A stretch of DNA of 64,000 bases. Origin: Linanthus parryae. Taxonomy: Eukaryota > Streptophyta > Magnoliopsida > Ericales > Polemoniaceae. The translations under genes were made by a program, and so were the position numbers. The notes below the pieces were generated by a model. It searched no databases. It was not told the origin of the DNA and saw only the letters and a list, made by a program, of their open reading frames with translations. Below are positions 4,149 to 57,192 of this stretch, one piece after another. The stretch spans positions 120,292,088 through 120,356,087 of the forward strand of contig JALGPY010000002.1 of assembly GCA_023055425.1 (NCBI GenBank). The letters are read 5' to 3'. The number at the start of each line of letters is the position of its first letter. Position 1 is the first letter of the stretch.

Positions 4149-4703
4149 GACCAACCTTGGAGATCGAACTTTGGAGCCTTGAGTCCATGGGTTTCAGCAA
4201 CACGAGAAATGGTTCAGTGACTTCAGTCACAACCCACTAGCTAGGTAAATTCAGGAGCAAGTTTCAGACCCAGGATCCCTAGAGGAATCAAGAGTAACGA
4301 TGATCTAGTTGTAGGTCACGAATTACAAGAATTTGTTTGATCTGATTGCGGCTACAAGAACCAAACTAATTAACAATCTGCAGAAGTAGTGGACAAGTAT
4401 GAACAAATAGACTACTGACTGGATTTGACAATTAATTGACCACACTATCTATGAACAAAGAAAGACTATCGACTGGATCAGACAATTGTTTGATCACACT
4501 ATCTAAATACCATAATGCTTAAAAGATTAATGTCTGCCAGCTATAAACCAAGTTCGAGCGAATTAACAGCCGAAGTACAGAAAAAATCTAAATACTTGCT
4601 GAGGAGGACACTTGAGAGGCTGATCTACAGAGACAACAACAAATATAAAGTCGGGCATGTGAGTGAGTTCCTCGACATATCAAACAATTAACTACCACCA
4701 AAA

Positions 4704-7990: not shown

Positions 7991-8138
7991 TATAAATTAG
8001 GACGGTTGATTTTAAAATGTCTTTTAGACCGTTAGATTGAATTAACCCCAGCCCTTAGATCTCATCTACCACCCCTTAACTACCCACTAATTAACTACCC
8101 ACTAAACTACCTATTCCTTTTATCATAATTATAAAAAA

Positions 8139-8423
8139 TTAGGGGATTGCCCGTGCCCGAGGGCACTACCCCAAAAACACGTTTCACTTATTGTAATATA
8201 GATAAATAAAATTAGTACTTTCATCCACAAACACACGTAAAAACACAAAGACAACATACATAATTTTATTAAAAGGAAGCCCTTCTTTTATAATTAGGAT
8301 AAAAGGAGTGGGTAGTTAAGTGGGTAGTTTCAGGGTGGTAGGTGAGATCTAAGGCTAGGGCTGATTTGATCTAATGGCCCAAAAGACATTTTAAAGTCAA
8401 ACTATGGTGTTTTATAGAATAGA
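8139..8423 (-). mobile_element. Inner Helitron copy in inverted orientation
   Basis: Read on the minus strand it runs from TCTATTCTATAAAACACC (8423) to the CTCGGGCACGGGCAATC hairpin end and CCCCTAA (8139), about 285 bp. It matches the outer Helitron: the 5' part (TTTTAAAATGTCTTTT...TTAGATCTCA...CTACCCAC) is inverted relative to 8007-8125, and the 3' part matches 8430-8583 inverted. This gives a large inverted repeat around 8140-8290. The exact 5' boundary is uncertain by a base or two. Confidence 0.7.
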
Positions 8424-8755
8424 AGGGGCTTCCTTTGTTTCTGATTATTTAATACAATAATTTATGTTGTCTTCGTTTTCTGCCCATGTTTGTAGATGAA
8501 AATACTCATTTTATTTATGACATTACAATAGGCCGTGAAACGTGTTTTTAGGGTAGTGCCCTCGGGCACGGGCAATATCTTAGTAATTATATAAAAAGGG
8601 GCTTCCTTTGTTCCTGATTATTTACTACAATTATTTATGTTGTCTTCATTTTCTGCCCATGTTTGTAGATGAAAATACTCATTTTATTATGACATTACAA
8701 TAGGTCGTGAAACGTGTTTTTAGGGTAGTGCCCTCGGGCACGGGCAATCCCCTAG
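8424..8755 (+). repeat. Tandemly duplicated Helitron 3' end
   Basis: Two copies of about 160 bp: about 8424-8583, ending GGGCAATATCTTAG, and about 8596-8755, ending GGGCAATCCCCTAG. Both begin AAGGGGCTTCCTTTGTT and include the terminal hairpin. Only the second has the canonical CTAG terminus next to the host T. Confidence 0.8.
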
Positions 8756-9312
8756 TTTGTATTATATTGTTATTGATATATTAGCCCAGCCTAATGCCTA
8801 TATAAGGAGGCTTAGAGTTGGAGAATAACATATCTCTCATCACTATTCTCCTTACATTTTGTCTCTCTCTCTTTATTTCTTATCTCTCTCAATTATCGTT
8901 TCACAACACGTTATTAGCACGCTGCCTCTGCCCTCTGTGTGAGCGAAGCATTAAGTGATCGTTCTGATCATATACAAACTCCGGGTCTGTTTATTTTGGA
9001 GCCGCCGCCATCAACAGGTTTGTTCCTTCTTAGGTATGTTTTGTTATAGGCTTTGATAGGGATTTGTTTTTCTTACTCGTGGACCCCTTCTTCTCCCTTC
9101 AAAAGATATCAATAGATCGTAAAGTGTTTTTTTTTGGTTACCCACGTGTGCCCTTCATACCAACGTAGGCAACACTTTGATGGGCTTTGCCCAGTGCTAC
9201 AGAGAGTTGTTTTAATTTGTCTTCTTCTAACCCTTTTTCTGTGATGTTATAGCATTTATTTACTTTGTGTCAATTCTGTTAGTAAGTGTAAAGAAAAAAA
9301 AAAGAGTTATAA

Positions 9313-9939
9313 CTTCCCGAAGAAGAGTAGACTCGCGATGTAAGGGCCTCTAACTGTGTTGACCTATGCATAACCAGAAGTTATGCTTATTTAGAAGTCA
9401 CTCCAGAAGTGGTGACCAATCAAGCAAGAGACCTTCATCAACTACCATTGCTTGGTTAAAATTATTGATACGCTTGTAGTATCATGTTTCACACTTGAAG
9501 TTGTGAACTACGTGGACATAAAGTAATCTGAAGTTGTGATTTTTTTTATGACCTGGAGTCATAATTTTAGGATACATCTTTTGAAGAGATATCCTACAAT
9601 TTTCGTGTAAACCTCCCGAAGAGGTCATGTTTTATTATGTCACTTTATTTTATGTTTACACATTTTTTTTTCATTACACAATGATGTAATTGTAACATGA
9701 AGTTACAACATAACAAGGGCATCTAGAAGATGCTGCTATTTCATGGCTTGACTTGTAACCTGAAGTTACAACATAACAAAACAAGCGCATCAAGAAGATA
9801 CAACTATTTCATGGCTTGTAACCTGAAGTTACAAATTACTACTAGATCTCTAGAGGAGACGCTTTCACAATTGTAGCCATTTTTTGTCCAACCTCCTGAA
9901 GAGGTTGCAGTTTGTTTATTTTATATTTTAATGCTACAC

Positions 9940-9988
<49 letters not shown>

Positions 9989-11700
9989 GCCATTACTCAT
10001 TATGGATCAAAAACAAACCTCCTGAAGAGGATTCGTCATAGCCATCGATGCAAAATCTGGCCATGTCATATGTACCTGAAGTCACATATCATATAATATT
10101 ACTCATAACCAGTAATTATGAAATATTATAAATAATTATCTCCTTAAGAGATTGTTACAATTCAAATAATGATCCACCATCCTGAAGAGGTTATACTTTT
10201 TATTTATTGTATTTTTTGCGCATTATACTTTTTGTTGGTAACTTGTTATGTAATTTGTTATTTATACGCTTATCATTTATATAAGCGGAGCATCCAGAAG
10301 ATGTTCTTAGTCCATGAGGGTCTATTGAAGAAAAAAAAATCATTTTATATGCGTAAAAAGTAATTTTCATACCAGAAGTTATGAAAATAATATTATAACA
10401 TGGAGTTATAATCAAAAAAATCTCCTACAACCACTCCCTTTTGAATAAAAATATTGACATTTACGTCTCTTTTTTGTTTTCTGAAAGAAACTTTGATTAG
10501 AGAACTACGGCTTCCAAGAGATTGCTTATTGTCAATGTTTTTGTTTAAACTTGAGGACTGGTTTATACAAAGTACATATGAGACAAATTGATGCCTGAAG
10601 CATCAACGAAATATCATTATGGTTATGATCATATTACTCGCGTCATGAGGGGGAGAATGGGTCCTACTACATGACGTGAACCAAAATATCATTGTCTCTA
10701 AGGGTACGTACTAATGCAAAATTCCAACAAAATGGATAGCTTCTCGACTAATGAGTGTCAGGTTTGGGTATACACTTTAAGCATAAAATGGTTGCTTGTG
10801 TACATATGTTAATCCTCCAGAAGAGGAATATAAATCAAAGCATCCAAAATAAGTTGGATATGAATATATTGCTCTACAAGATGGGAACACAAGATTACGA
10901 GGAAAATCTTGAAAGGTTATCATTAATATGGATCAAAACCAACGTTGGTAGTTGAATAGCCCTGGAAGAGGCTCATAGCTCTGGAAGTAACTAAAGGTAC
11001 TTAACTACTACATACGATCCTACAAATAATTGATTATTATTTTAAGCGCTTTAAAAATTACATGAGTTAAAGGGAAAAGTGTTGACTAGATAATTAATGG
11101 CCACAAACAAAGTCAACACACGCATAACAATTGATCGGGTTACATAAATATGTAGAGCAAAACATATAGTACTAAAAGTACTAACAACCCGAAGCATAAT
11201 TACAATATACGCGAATACTACATATCCGCTGTTCAGCGTGGGATCCATGTAGATATTACAAATACGCTACTAAGCGTGGGATATATGTTCGCTGTTAAGC
11301 GTGGAACTTATGTTTGGGGACTAAGGTACAACAAGATATGGGTTGAAAAGTAACTAGTTACAAATACGATCGTACGAAACAAATTTGTGAAATTCCATGG
11401 AGGTTGGTTCCCATGAGAAATAATATTTGCCTGGAGCAAATTGAAAGTGTACACTCGCGAGTAGTTTTAGGTGCATATGCATTTTATTAAGTATGATTGT
11501 TAATCGTATATTATATGTATTCTTGTTTTGCAATGAATTTATTTGTCAGGTACAAAGATGTTCCAATGAGGGGGAGATCCAATGAAATGCTAAAAGCGTG
11601 GCACTCGTTTTCCTTCGTTATGGTTTTTGTCCCACAGGGTTTTTCCAAGCAAGGTTTTAACGAGGCCGCGAAGATCATCAGATGCATTCCAGAAGAATGT
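9313..11700 (+). repeat. Dispersed array of hairpins with a conserved C-(CWGAA)-G cap
   Basis: At least 16 hairpins share a 5-nt loop (CTGAA, CAGAA, CTGGA, ATGAA, TAGAA, CCGAA, ATGGA or CTTAA) closed by C-G, while stem sequences differ. Positions (stem bp): 9368-9386 (7), 9546-9564 (7), 9611-9625 (5), 9690-9708 (7), 9719-9733 (5), 9753-9771 (7), 9816-9834 (7), 9889-9907 (7), 10138-10152 (5), 10288-10306 (7, one GU), 10363-10388 (10, one bulge), 10392-10412 (8), 10588-10606 (7), 10813-10827 (5), 11425-11441 (6), 11684-11700 (6, one GU). Imperfect members lie at 9313-9325, about 9487-9507, 9569-9597, 10015-10033 and 10066-10090. Examples: TTGATGC-CTGAA-GCATCAA and ATTATAAC-ATGGA-GTTATAAT. Compensating stem changes under a fixed loop point to RNA structure rather than coding. 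The function is unknown to me. Confidence 0.85.
9942..9986. repeat. (AT)n microsatellite
   Basis: About 45 bp of alternating TA within the LTR element's internal region, between two array hairpins. Confidence 0.95.
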
Positions 11701-11828
11701 CATCTCCAAAAGTTAGCAAATTAGAATTCACTGATGTACTCTTTTTCCTTAGTCATTGATTTTTCCCACAGGATTTTTCATGACAAGGTTTTAACGAGGA
11801 ATCGTAGTGGTGAATATTCAAGGGGGAG

Positions 11829-12033
11829 TGTTATGATATATGGGCTGGATTATTGGTGAATATCCACCTCATATTATAAGCCCAATTTGTATATTGTTAT
11901 TGGTCTATTAGCCCAGCCTAATGCCTATATAAGGAGGCTTAGAGTTGGAGAATAACAGATCTCTCATCACTATTCTCCCTACATCTTGTCTCTCTCTTTA
12001 TTTCTTGTCTCTCTCAATTATCGTTTCACAACA
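11829..12033 (+). mobile_element. LTR2 (uninterrupted, 205 bp)
   Basis: Runs TGTTATGATATATGGG...TTATCGTTTCACAACA, directly after the polypurine tract CAAGGGGGAG. It is close in sequence to the two halves of LTR1. It contains CCTATATAAGGAGG, a likely TATA box, about 90 bp before the end. It serves as the empty-site reference for the Helitron insertion in LTR1. Confidence 0.9.
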
Positions 12034-12235
12034 TTATGAAATATTTGGCTAGTTTATTGGTCAACATTCACCAGATATCGTAAGTCTATTTGTATATTGT
12101 TATTGGCCCAGCAACCCACCCTAATATCTATATAATGAGGCTTAGAGTTGGGAAATAATGCACAACCCAATACTCTCTTCTTTATACTATTGTCTCTCTT
12201 TATTTTCTGTTTCTCTCAATTCTAGATTCACCACA
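12034..12235 (+). mobile_element. LTR3, diverged, abutting LTR2
   Basis: TTATGAAATATTTGGC...TTGTATATTGTTATTGGCCC...ATATCTATATAATGAGG CTTAGAGTTGG...ATTCACCACA is colinear with LTR2 but clearly more diverged, and lacks the initial TG. It is followed by CGTTATCAGCATG, equivalent to the start of the internal region after LTR1. It is therefore an older LTR whose own internal region is mostly gone. Confidence 0.75.
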
Positions 12236-12690
12236 CGTTATCAGCATGTGTCTCTACCGTTTTAAAAGAAAATAATAATATAATAAATTGAGGTATGAAC
12301 TTTATTGTTATAATTCATGTTTGTTTTGCAAGAAATAAATATGATCGAAATTATTTTATCTGTTCACGATTGAATATTTGAACATCAAAATATGTGTAAC
12401 TGCATGGGCGAGTCAATTTAAATTTTCCTTTTTGGGACCCTTTTCAGTTCGTTATCATTTTTTTTTTGCTCTGTAGCTCTGATATAGGGTTTTTTTTGTT
12501 TGTTTGCTTTGAAGAAAGTTAGTTTACTGACATTTTTTTGAAAAGAAAAAAAAATACATGAGTAATTTGCCGAGGAAACCGTGATTGGTTTCCTACGTTT
12601 TGAAATAAAAATTAAGTGCCCGAAATTTCAATATTTTTTTCTCTTTTCTTTTTTTACCTCCTTGTTTTTTTCTTTACTTCTTTTTCTCAA
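12236..12690. other. AT-rich spacer
   Basis: Begins with about 25 bp of LTR-element internal sequence, then T- and A-rich DNA without a recognisable gene. Confidence 0.5.
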
Positions 12691-14388
12691 TTTTTTTCTT
12701 ATTTTTTTTCTTTTCTCTTTTTGTTTTCAATGCGGGACAACACAGTAAATAACATAATATAGACCAGGCATGTTCTACAATATTCCAAAAATGTGGGGTG
12801 GCTGAAAAATACTGAAAAAAAAACTGACACGACCACCCCCACACTAGCTTCGAACCATGTAGTAAATTCGTAAAATAATCGCATTTTTTCCAACCTATCC
12901 TCCTTACTCCAAGGATGCCTAAATAGCTCAGTGAGTCCTCCAAATAACTCTATCAATCCAAGAACCTCATGTCGTGCGGAAAAAATGTCATGCACTACGG
13001 CTCTCCTCCTGTGCTCACGCTGTAATTTCATGAGTCACCGCCACACCGAAGTGTGCTGCCGTCACTATCTCACCCTTTCACCCACTCAAATATAGAAATA
13101 TGAAGTTCCTCCACTATTAAATATGACAAATCTGCTCTACCCAAGAAAATCTCCATCGAATCAACTCCCTCGTGCCATGACGCGTAGGAAAGATCAAAAT
13201 ACTAACAATGATGCGAGTATCAAAAAACAACTTCCTACGTCAATTGGTTACCAAGAAAAGGGTTCAACGGGGCTCACTAGTGGACCTAAGGCGCGAGACA
13301 GGAGGTGAGGTCCCATATGGCCTATCACTCCACCAAATGATGTGGTGACCGTGATGGAGGTTTGACGACTACCTGGTGATGGTGGTCTGGCAGGTAGTAG
13401 GATACATTGCTCGGGAGACAGCTACTTGCGTTTTCTGAAGTGCATTGGCTCTATAACTCCTCTAGACAGATTCTCACAGCTCTTCCTCACTTAAGTTCGT
13501 CCACTTCCGCGAAATTTTTCATCATTAAGCTCTCTCCAGTTTAAAGCTAAATCATTTGCCCAATACCAAAATTTAATTTTTTTATTTTTATTTTTTCATT
13601 TTTTACAGTAAAATAAGACTAATGCAGTTACAACGCAACCACCCCACACTGGATGGTATCATACGCTCATGGTACTAATCATCAGGCATATAATCTGGAC
13701 TAGATGAGCTCGCGTGCCTCATCGACTGGGAACAACATGTAGCATACTCAGAAAAATAAAGTGAGAGACATAAATTGAACCTGTGCACCCGGAGTCAGTT
13801 CTTACAGGTGTTGAATTTTCTGCAGATTCCAGCAGAGAAGGACCGTTGACCGTTCGCCGGAAAATTTCTCGACGGAAGTTGTCAACCTTCCGGGCTCTGC
13901 ATGCGCTCATCAAGTGTGCAATCCCCAAGCAACATTGTGTGTGACAATGTGCTCCCATATTGTCGAGTGTATTTTTGTACACCGGGGTCAATTGCCCAAT
14001 TCTGATGATAACTGTTCCTGAAGAATTCCCAACTCACACGAGTCCCTGTGATGGTCGAGTGTGCCAGGCACACTGGGGTCGATTCTTCAAGATTTTGAAA
14101 ACTGCATTTTCTGATCACTTTTTCTCTCTGTCTTTGTAGCTACATGCGTAGCTAATCTGATTTCTGCGTAGCTACGCCGACAAAGACTAGTCTGCATAAT
14201 TTTTCTGTCTTCAGTTACTTGTTTTTCTACACGTACTCAGTTTAGCATTAAATTCCAGTTCATCTCACCTCTCAATAATTAAATAAGTAAATAAATTAAC
14301 AACGTAAACCTACTTCTGGGTTGGGTTGCCTCCCAACAAGCGCTTGTAATTTAAGGTTGACGGCCCGATCCAGTTACCTCATGCTTGA

Positions 14389-57119: not shown

Positions 57120-57145
<26 letters not shown>

Positions 57146-57146
57146 T

Positions 57147-57192
<46 letters not shown>
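57120..57192 (+). tRNA. trnM: tRNA-Met (CAU), chloroplast-type as found in plant mitochondria
   Basis: 73 nt. Acceptor ACCTACT pairs with AGTAGGT, discriminator A. D arm GACTC...GAGT. Anticodon arm TCGCT-TTCATAC-GGCGA with anticodon CAU. T loop GGTTCAAATCC within a paired arm. It closely matches chloroplast elongator trnM, the copy plant mitochondria have acquired. All stems are intact. If the segment is nuclear, this gene is most likely inactive. Confidence 0.9.

Follow-up and report, generated by a model that had tools for sequence, protein, structure and literature searches.

The retroviral psi signal consists of conserved-loop hairpins that lie 3' of the major splice donor and are present in unspliced RNA only. 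Single-stranded RNA viruses carry dispersed packaging signals, in which many stem-loops with varied stems share one loop motif. LARD and TRIM elements have LTRs, a primer-binding site (PBS), a polypurine tract (PPT) and a non-coding interior. Little is known of the way in which plant LTR retrotransposons select their genomic RNA, or of the mobilization in trans of their many non-coding copies. For the barley Ty1/copia elements BARE1 and BARE2, the excerpted report describes splicing that generates a Gag-only mRNA apart from the genomic RNA, a BARE1 intron of 104 nt at the end of gag, and packaging of BARE2, which is unable to make Gag, in BARE1 particles (PMC3735527). TR-GAG elements, as excerpted, have two LTRs and gag as the sole ORF (PMC8704663).

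Here, we identify a dispersed array of short hairpins with a nearly constant loop, all on one strand, in a non-coding LTR element of a 64-kb window of Linanthus parryae DNA, the window being the whole stretch analysed (genome size 1.51 Gb). The element belongs to a multi-copy Ty1/copia group in which the array is carried by Gag-only, CA-less NC+Pol and non-coding elements and in which copies with a spliced junction are scarce. As in psi, conserved-loop hairpins lie 3' of a donor, here a predicted one, in a stretch that would be confined to unspliced RNA; however, psi comprises few hairpins in a compact 5' domain and its binding is demonstrated, whereas the array comprises 10 to 20 hairpins dispersed over 1 to 5 kb and differs from both kinds of packaging signal in being known from sequence alone. 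With the signals of single-stranded RNA viruses it shares many stem-loops, differing stems and a common loop motif, but it resides in a retroelement and in a predicted intron. The window element has the LTRs, PBS, PPT and non-coding interior of LARD and TRIM elements and differs from them by the array, which is present in coding relatives too. Unlike the 104-nt BARE1 intron at the gag end, the predicted intron spans 1.4 to 1.75 kb before the first ORF, and the excerpted BARE1/BARE2 text mentions no hairpin array (PMC3735527). One relative has the TR-GAG layout of two LTRs and a single gag; the excerpted TR-GAG text mentions neither an array nor a CA-less NC+Pol partner (PMC8704663). A literature search covering titles and the openings of abstracts, with few subscription journals, returned no description of such an array in an LTR retrotransposon, which we take as weak evidence that it is undescribed so far.

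We suggest that the array is a reiterated binding platform that would mark unspliced RNA for packaging by Gag/NC, a reading that keeps to the platform for packaging or Gag recognition of the preliminary description and to which we give a probability of about 0.45. Within a plant Ty1/copia group, some branches would use the array as a reiterated RNA element that acts in cis, the unit of the array being a short stem of varying sequence that presents the cap C[NNGNA]G, usually CWGAA. Splicing of the intron would generate a short-leader mRNA from which the array is deleted, while unspliced RNA, to which the genomic copies correspond, would retain it. The loop would be read by a protein, presumably the CCHC/GR-rich nucleocapsid (NC) part of Gag, and bound caps would mark the unspliced RNA for packaging, such that Gag-only, CA-less NC+Pol and non-coding carriers could share particles through the array. 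A repeated, intron-borne RNA cap is thus a concrete candidate signal for the choice of genomic RNA; it points to a candidate reader, namely the NC region of a Gag family whose relatives occur in many flowering plants, and makes the choice between splicing and packaging directly testable.

The preliminary description had placed the hairpins in non-coding retroelement sequence, and indeed no ORF of at least 120 aa is listed in 8756-12033. The window element has the LTRs, PBS, PPT and non-coding interior of LARD-like non-autonomous elements, its 5' LTR being truncated (see the table). The features that define Ty1/copia elements were found in relatives only (Retrotran_gag_2 above and CCHC just below the cut-off in L121 and L116; gag_pre-integrs, rve and RVT_2, in that order, in L139), the window copy being without such an ORF. 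The junction of LTR end and PBS, CACAACACGTTATCAGCACG, is matched exactly at 425 places genome-wide, and its reversed control at none. To us, the PBS family form CGTTATCAGCACG does not look complementary to the 3' end of a tRNA; in reverse complement it presumably resembles the D-arm/anticodon-arm part of tRNA-Ile, and in this candidate pairing a C would stand opposite position 34, which we take to be inosine in the mature tRNA. This would be akin to the half-tRNA priming of Drosophila copia. A tRNA-Met gene lies at window 57120-57192. The 3' LTR is directly adjoined by another, related LTR (window 12034-12248) that has a PBS of its own (12236-12248), and within the window no strict sense-strand hairpin was found 3' of this second LTR. 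Searches of 8000-13000 for known RNA families gave SNORD97 alone in Rfam, at 25.1 bits against a gathering threshold of 45, and no hammerhead match at E <= 1, and we rejected a known Rfam family and a retrozyme.

Features of the LTR element and its hairpin array (window coordinates; strict rule, perfect stem of at least 5 bp, C-G closing pair and NHGRA loop; looser rule, bulges and G-T pairs permitted)
Feature	Position	Strand	Basis or remark
Truncated 5' LTR, 3' part, ends ..TTTCACAACA	8756..8908	+	repeats D1, D2; start by eye
Primer-binding site CGTTATTAGCACG, family form CGTTATCAGCACG	8909..8921	+	
Alternative predicted donor AG/GTTTGT	9017	+	
Predicted splice donor AG/GTATGT, intron start 9034	9032..9039	+	position as in relatives' donors
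Weak hairpin, loop CCGAA, 4 bp + internal loop + 4 bp	9307..9330	+	looser rule
Hairpin GCATAAC CAGAA GTTATGC	9368..9386	+	strict rule
Bulged hairpin GTCACTC CAGAA GTGGTGAC	9397..9416	+	looser rule
Bulged hairpin TTCACAC TTGAA GTTGTGAA	9488..9507	+	looser rule
Hairpin TTATGAC CTGGA GTCATAA	9546..9564	+	strict rule
Hairpin, loop TTGAA, T-G closing pair, 4 bp + bulge + 7 bp	9568..9596	+	looser rule
Hairpin ACCTC CCGAA GAGGT	9611..9625	+	strict rule
Hairpin TTGTAAC ATGAA GTTACAA	9690..9708	+	strict rule
Hairpin GCATC TAGAA GATGC	9719..9733	+	strict rule
Hairpin TTGTAAC CTGAA GTTACAA, near-duplicate of 9690	9753..9771	+	strict rule, repeats
Hairpin TTGTAAC CTGAA GTTACAA, near-duplicate of 9690	9816..9834	+	strict rule, repeats
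Hairpin CAACCTC CTGAA GAGGTTG	9889..9907	+	strict rule
Short hairpin CCTC CTGAA GAGG	10018..10030	+	4-bp stem
Bulged hairpin ATATGTAC CTGAA GTCACATAT	10068..10089	+	looser rule
Hairpin GGAGCATC CAGAA GATGTTCT, with G-T pairs	10287..10307	+	looser rule
Bulged hairpin ATTTTCATAC CAGAA GTTATGAAAAT	10363..10388	+	looser rule
Hairpin ATTATAAC ATGGA GTTATAAT	10392..10412	+	strict rule
Hairpin TTGATGC CTGAA GCATCAA; same slot in other copies	10588..10606	+	strict rule
Hairpin TCCTC CAGAA GAGGA	10813..10827	+	strict rule
Hairpin ATTTGC CTGGA GCAAAT	11425..11441	+	strict rule
Acceptor-like TATTTGTCAG/G near 3' end	11540..11550	+	sequence resemblance
Hairpin CATTC CAGAA GAATG	11685..11699	+	strict rule
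Polypurine tract AAGGGGGAG	11820..11828	+	read from sequence
3' LTR, 205 bp, TG..CA	11829..12033	+	read from sequence

Several comparisons support the array as real, as had been claimed. First, between 9300 and 11700, perfect stems of at least 5 bp with a C-G closing pair and a 5-nt NHGRA loop number 13 in sense and none in antisense, and in the shuffling control that had been proposed, 1000 dinucleotide shuffles gave a mean of 0.01 and a maximum of 1. In the same interval, stems of at least 4 bp give 16 hairpins versus 0.04 in shuffles, any 5-nt loop with C-G closing gives 15 versus 0.39, and 4-nt and 6-nt loops with C-G closing give 0 and 0. Second, the whole 64-kb window has two other strict NHGRA hairpins, both on the minus strand and one of them inside one of the window's two other Copia elements; because these two elements contain this one strict hairpin between them, Copia DNA does not carry the array as a rule. 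Third, under the looser rule, 9100-11828 (2.7 kb) has 20 C-G-closed sense and 0 antisense hairpins, and 47.7 kb from the rest of the window has 11 and 20 on its two strands. Fourth, we selected sites by the loop letters NHGAA alone and exchanged 3' arms among sites. In the array, own arms paired over at least 5 bp at 10 of 53 sites, compared to a mean of 0.54 and a maximum of 3 in 500 swaps; antisense sites paired at 0 of 30, and the remaining window at 1 of 984 and 3 of 1185, about the same as swapped. In nine other copies, the paired sites numbered 6 to 17 in sense and 0 or 1 in antisense (e.g., 15 of 141 in L086, swapped mean 0.34, and 17 of 155 in L088, swapped mean 0.44). The earlier stem range of 5 to 10 bp needs correction: perfect stems here are 4 to 8 bp, reaching 13 bp in other copies. 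Similarly, the proposed CWGAA loop with C-G closing gives the usual letters, while from position 1 to 5 the loop is mostly C/T/A, T/A/C, G, A, A, position 4 deviating in certain slots. In several members, a 3'-side bulge adjoins the closing pair.

The loop letters point to recognition at the cap. Among 30 aligned copies of 9482-9940 (the young set), the loop has G at position 3 in 193 of 207 cells, A at position 4 in 201 and A at position 5 in all 207, and positions 1 and 2 are variable. Because position 4 is C or T in some slots (CTGCA, TTGCA, CTGTA), the firmest invariants are the closing C-G pair, G3 and A5. A plant RNA-binding protein could read such a cap and alter RNA stability or localisation, either hijacked by the element or restraining it. 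The Smaug/Vts1 site is a CNGGN loop in which G at position 4 is needed; a pentaloop with a fixed G3 resembles it, and CTGGA and ATGGA loops make up 8 of 278 hairpins. However, with A at position 4 in 201 of 207 cells, CNGGN is unmatched, and we rejected the Smaug/Vts1 recognition element and hold a host factor to be a distinctly unlikely reader.

Stems are constrained in the young set, in which variants common to at least four copies (shared variants) occur in 7 of 85 stem, 5 of 35 loop and 52 of 280 spacer columns: stems have fewer than spacers (Fisher p 0.028), and loops, taken together, are no different from spacers in this respect. There is no covariation in this set, with 7 double changes versus 6.9 expected if independent, and its stems are mostly conserved only. 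Across subfamilies (41 rows, five slots tested), compensatory changes were found in two of five slots. In slot one, pair 4 is GC in 30 rows and TA in 7, and pair 6 is TA in 33 and CG in 5; in the bulged slot, pair 2 is AT in 31 and TA in 4, and pair 6 is AT in 34 and TA in 4. Own arms in these slots are 0.914 and 0.911 paired, compared to maxima of 0.883 and 0.893 in 1000 swaps, and in the other three own arms are not above swaps (0.954 versus a mean of 0.955; 0.930 versus 0.932; 0.895 versus 0.881, maximum 0.905), all of these tests being inflated by the relatedness of the rows and the counts possibly representing few events. The slot at 9488..9507 has paired variants in relatives, e.g., ATCCATAC/GTTATGGAT, and that at 10068..10089 shows A-T to T-A double changes. 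Thus, the preliminary claim that both arms changed together holds between slots and subfamilies but not within the 30-copy family; the broader claim of a selected RNA structure with a fixed loop gains support from the strand bias, the presence in most sampled copies, the presumed second species and the compensatory slots. Reverse-transcriptase template switching that copies one arm onto the other would make covariation cheap without selection, and tandem units exist, in L141 too. Yet it leaves the fixed loop letters, the closing pair, the strand bias and the absence of hairpins from the examined first ORFs unexplained, and we consider it very improbable.

The array is widespread among copies. 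Genome searches with the LTR (window 11827-12034), the array region and the 3' region gave at least 41, 51 and 40 matches, 40 of 1683, 605 and 1533 candidates, respectively, being scored. Hairpins with the same cap occur at 22 of 30 LTR loci, the window included, while the other eight have none within 1.5 kb; 12 of 13 longer stretches have them, all on the strand of the LTR, with L089 as the sole hairpin-free stretch. All 30 array-region loci carry hairpins (33 different stems; 278 hairpins on the main strand and 1 on the opposite strand), a rate that is a product of how these loci were selected; a fairer rate comes from sampled PBS sites, of which 9 of 12 have hairpins within 1.2 kb and 3 are hairpin-free over that distance.

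The array of coding relatives sits within a predicted 5'-UTR intron, 3' of a predicted donor that follows the PBS and 5' of the first ORF, a context that the preliminary description had no means of seeing. AGGTR is found 23-110 nt 3' of the PBS in 43 of 51 rows and is absent within 140 nt in eight, at least seven of the 51 rows being second readings of a place. Among 18 copies with a strict PBS and donor, 14 have an ATG directly after an AG preceded by a T-rich tract (mostly ..TTGTTGTAG or ..TTTTTAG) and four fail this rule; because the search rule requires this AG, it is not independent evidence for an acceptor. At the acceptor-like site of the window element, CAGGT is present in 13 of 17 aligned rows, window counted. 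The 14 predicted introns (1402-1746 nt each, 21,124 nt in total, with the apparently near-identical copies L099 and L100 each counted) contain 152 sense hairpins and 1 antisense, and the first ORFs of these copies (7,413 nt) contain none. A psi-like placement, 3' of the donor and absent from spliced RNA, is predicted in 14 of the 18 copies. Genome-wide, AAAGGTA (donor type) lies 20-50 nt 3' of the PBS at 171 places and AAAGATG (spliced-junction type) at 6, at least one of which is unspliced as the place on C51 also runs on into AAAGGTA. Several PBS-plus-donor places pair with Gag starts, taken from 113 Gag matches, at 1.05-1.6 kb (e.g., C46:2883770 and 2885402; C35:77776690 and 77775307). The ratio of 171 to 6 indicates that integrated copies derive from RNA retaining the intron stretch, and we predict that this leader stretch is a spliced intron.

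Together, the fixed cap, varied stems, single strand, many copies and placement in the retained RNA fit a reiterated protein site that identifies genomic RNA. The main rival to packaging is a platform similar to RRE or CTE, in which the caps would recruit an exporter of intron-containing RNA or act as a splicing brake, packaging being separate. The array is in a predicted intron retained by genomic copies and is multi-copy, as cooperative binding would predict, and an excerpted review reports a Cer1-encoded protein that is required to export unspliced Cer1 RNA (PMC12786077). By contrast, non-coding elements, which have no protein from a spliced form, carry arrays past the intron, with hairpins well beyond its original extent (window 10588-11699; L086), and we regard export as improbable, if a serious contender. 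The structure alone might instead control splicing or translation by looping out the intron or regulating the leader, the cap being merely favoured and protein-free. Placement between donor and first ORF would fit, as would the folding of 9300-10299, which is 6.9 sd better than 20 shuffles in a segment that includes a (TA)n repeat. However, the individual hairpins are weak (-1.3 to -9.0 kcal/mol), a stability optimum would favour the known stable tetraloops, and constant loop letters on differing stems indicate recognition, making control by structure alone quite unlikely. Hairpins beyond the original intron or in pol, and the low stability of each hairpin, count against the packaging reading as well.

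Packaging by Gag/NC requires a reader, and coding relatives supply a candidate. L121+L138 is a Gag-only element with a gag of 372 aa and no pol, LTRs identical over 185 nt and GTAAC flanks on either side; it alone has the two LTRs, single gag ORF and absence of pol of TR-GAG elements. Its 3' non-coding part is related to window 10640-11826 and has four capped hairpins. Its Gag contains a GR-rich stretch and a CCHC zinc knuckle, the knuckle being just under the Pfam cut-off. Of 3549 candidates within the eligible length range, 1580 are related to this Gag; those listed by name are from flowering plants, with Helianthus, Beta, Linum, Phoenix and Carex among the genera. L116+L140 resembles this element for about 0.75 kb past gag, its gag frame being broken. 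Of 30 loci (L096-L125), 24 match a 144-aa CCHC protein without a CA match, some of them broken, two match CA and four neither. One of the CCHC-type, CA-less elements (L098+L139) has a separate pol frame, 1049 aa of it open in L139, and a 3' LTR weakly similar to that of the window element. These classes would fit a divided system of Gag-only (CA+NC) elements, CA-less NC+Pol elements and non-coding passengers, in which 10-20 CWGAA-capped hairpins in a retained 5' intron, as a shared RNA code, would admit unspliced RNAs alone to common particles; this extension is speculative and on balance unlikely. In another gag branch (L142+L143), a pol-like frame, read by eye, follows gag, and the division of labour may reflect incomplete sampling.

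The cap and its placement appear to recur in a presumed second plant species. The one relative found in the genome collection, L141 (NZ_QPKJ02000023.1), is a 5.6-kb contig filed in a Solirubrobacter genome assembly that we presume to be plant DNA, given the 70% identity of its Gag and the plant origin of those Gag relatives that are listed by name. It contains a gag whose frame is broken there, a pol frame of its own, 1223 aa long, and an LTR-like stretch between PPT and PBS followed by donor-like sites. Six capped hairpins lie within 441 nt 3' of these sites, with 0 antisense; their loops are CAGAA, CCGAA and TAGAA, and four of six have a 3'-side bulge by the closing pair. Since these hairpins are part of a tandem repeat, they amount to two independent units. 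Elsewhere, none of 52 IMG/VR stretches with the LTR-end pattern has more than two hairpins on a strand, back-translated Gag and pol found no relative in IMG/VR, and a Linum Gag had no match among plasmids.

The array belongs to some branches only. Upstream of gag copies 65-67% identical to L121 Gag, L142 has 1 weak hairpin, L144 has 0 and L145 has 13, and because L142, although nearly array-less, precedes a pol-like frame, the array is not needed by every relative. L142 (about 490-960) and L144 (about 630-690) have several short units with TTCGAACCC-like motifs, which to our eye resemble antisense tRNA T-arms; such units in array-less introns are perhaps another repeated leader element. Capped hairpins also occur in pol, where two frames have 3 apiece, compared to 0.25 and 0.12 in synonymous shuffles (300 of them), a result that is suggestive at most because two encode conserved peptides: CACGC CWGAA GCGTG and AAATCC CTGAA GGATTT are at corresponding codons in L141 and L139, and peptide constraint may explain them.

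Other features recur among copies. A tandem LTR-internal-LTR array is suggested by three PBS copies that share one orientation and follow each other at intervals of about 3.6 kb (G000:C1:96100633, 96104240 and 96107874). At window 10641-10676, the arms CGTCATG/CATGACG pair perfectly around an internal polypurine tract, AGGGGGAG; this stem recurs in L138 (reverse complement 362-403) and L086 (about 4610-4652), the tract in the loop being like a central PPT presented by a hairpin. Just 5' of the PPT, the motif GGTTTTT..CCCACAGGGTTTTTCC..AAGGTTTTAACGAGG is repeated (window 11626-11665 and 11760-11799); it has three copies in L086 and is present in L138 and L141.
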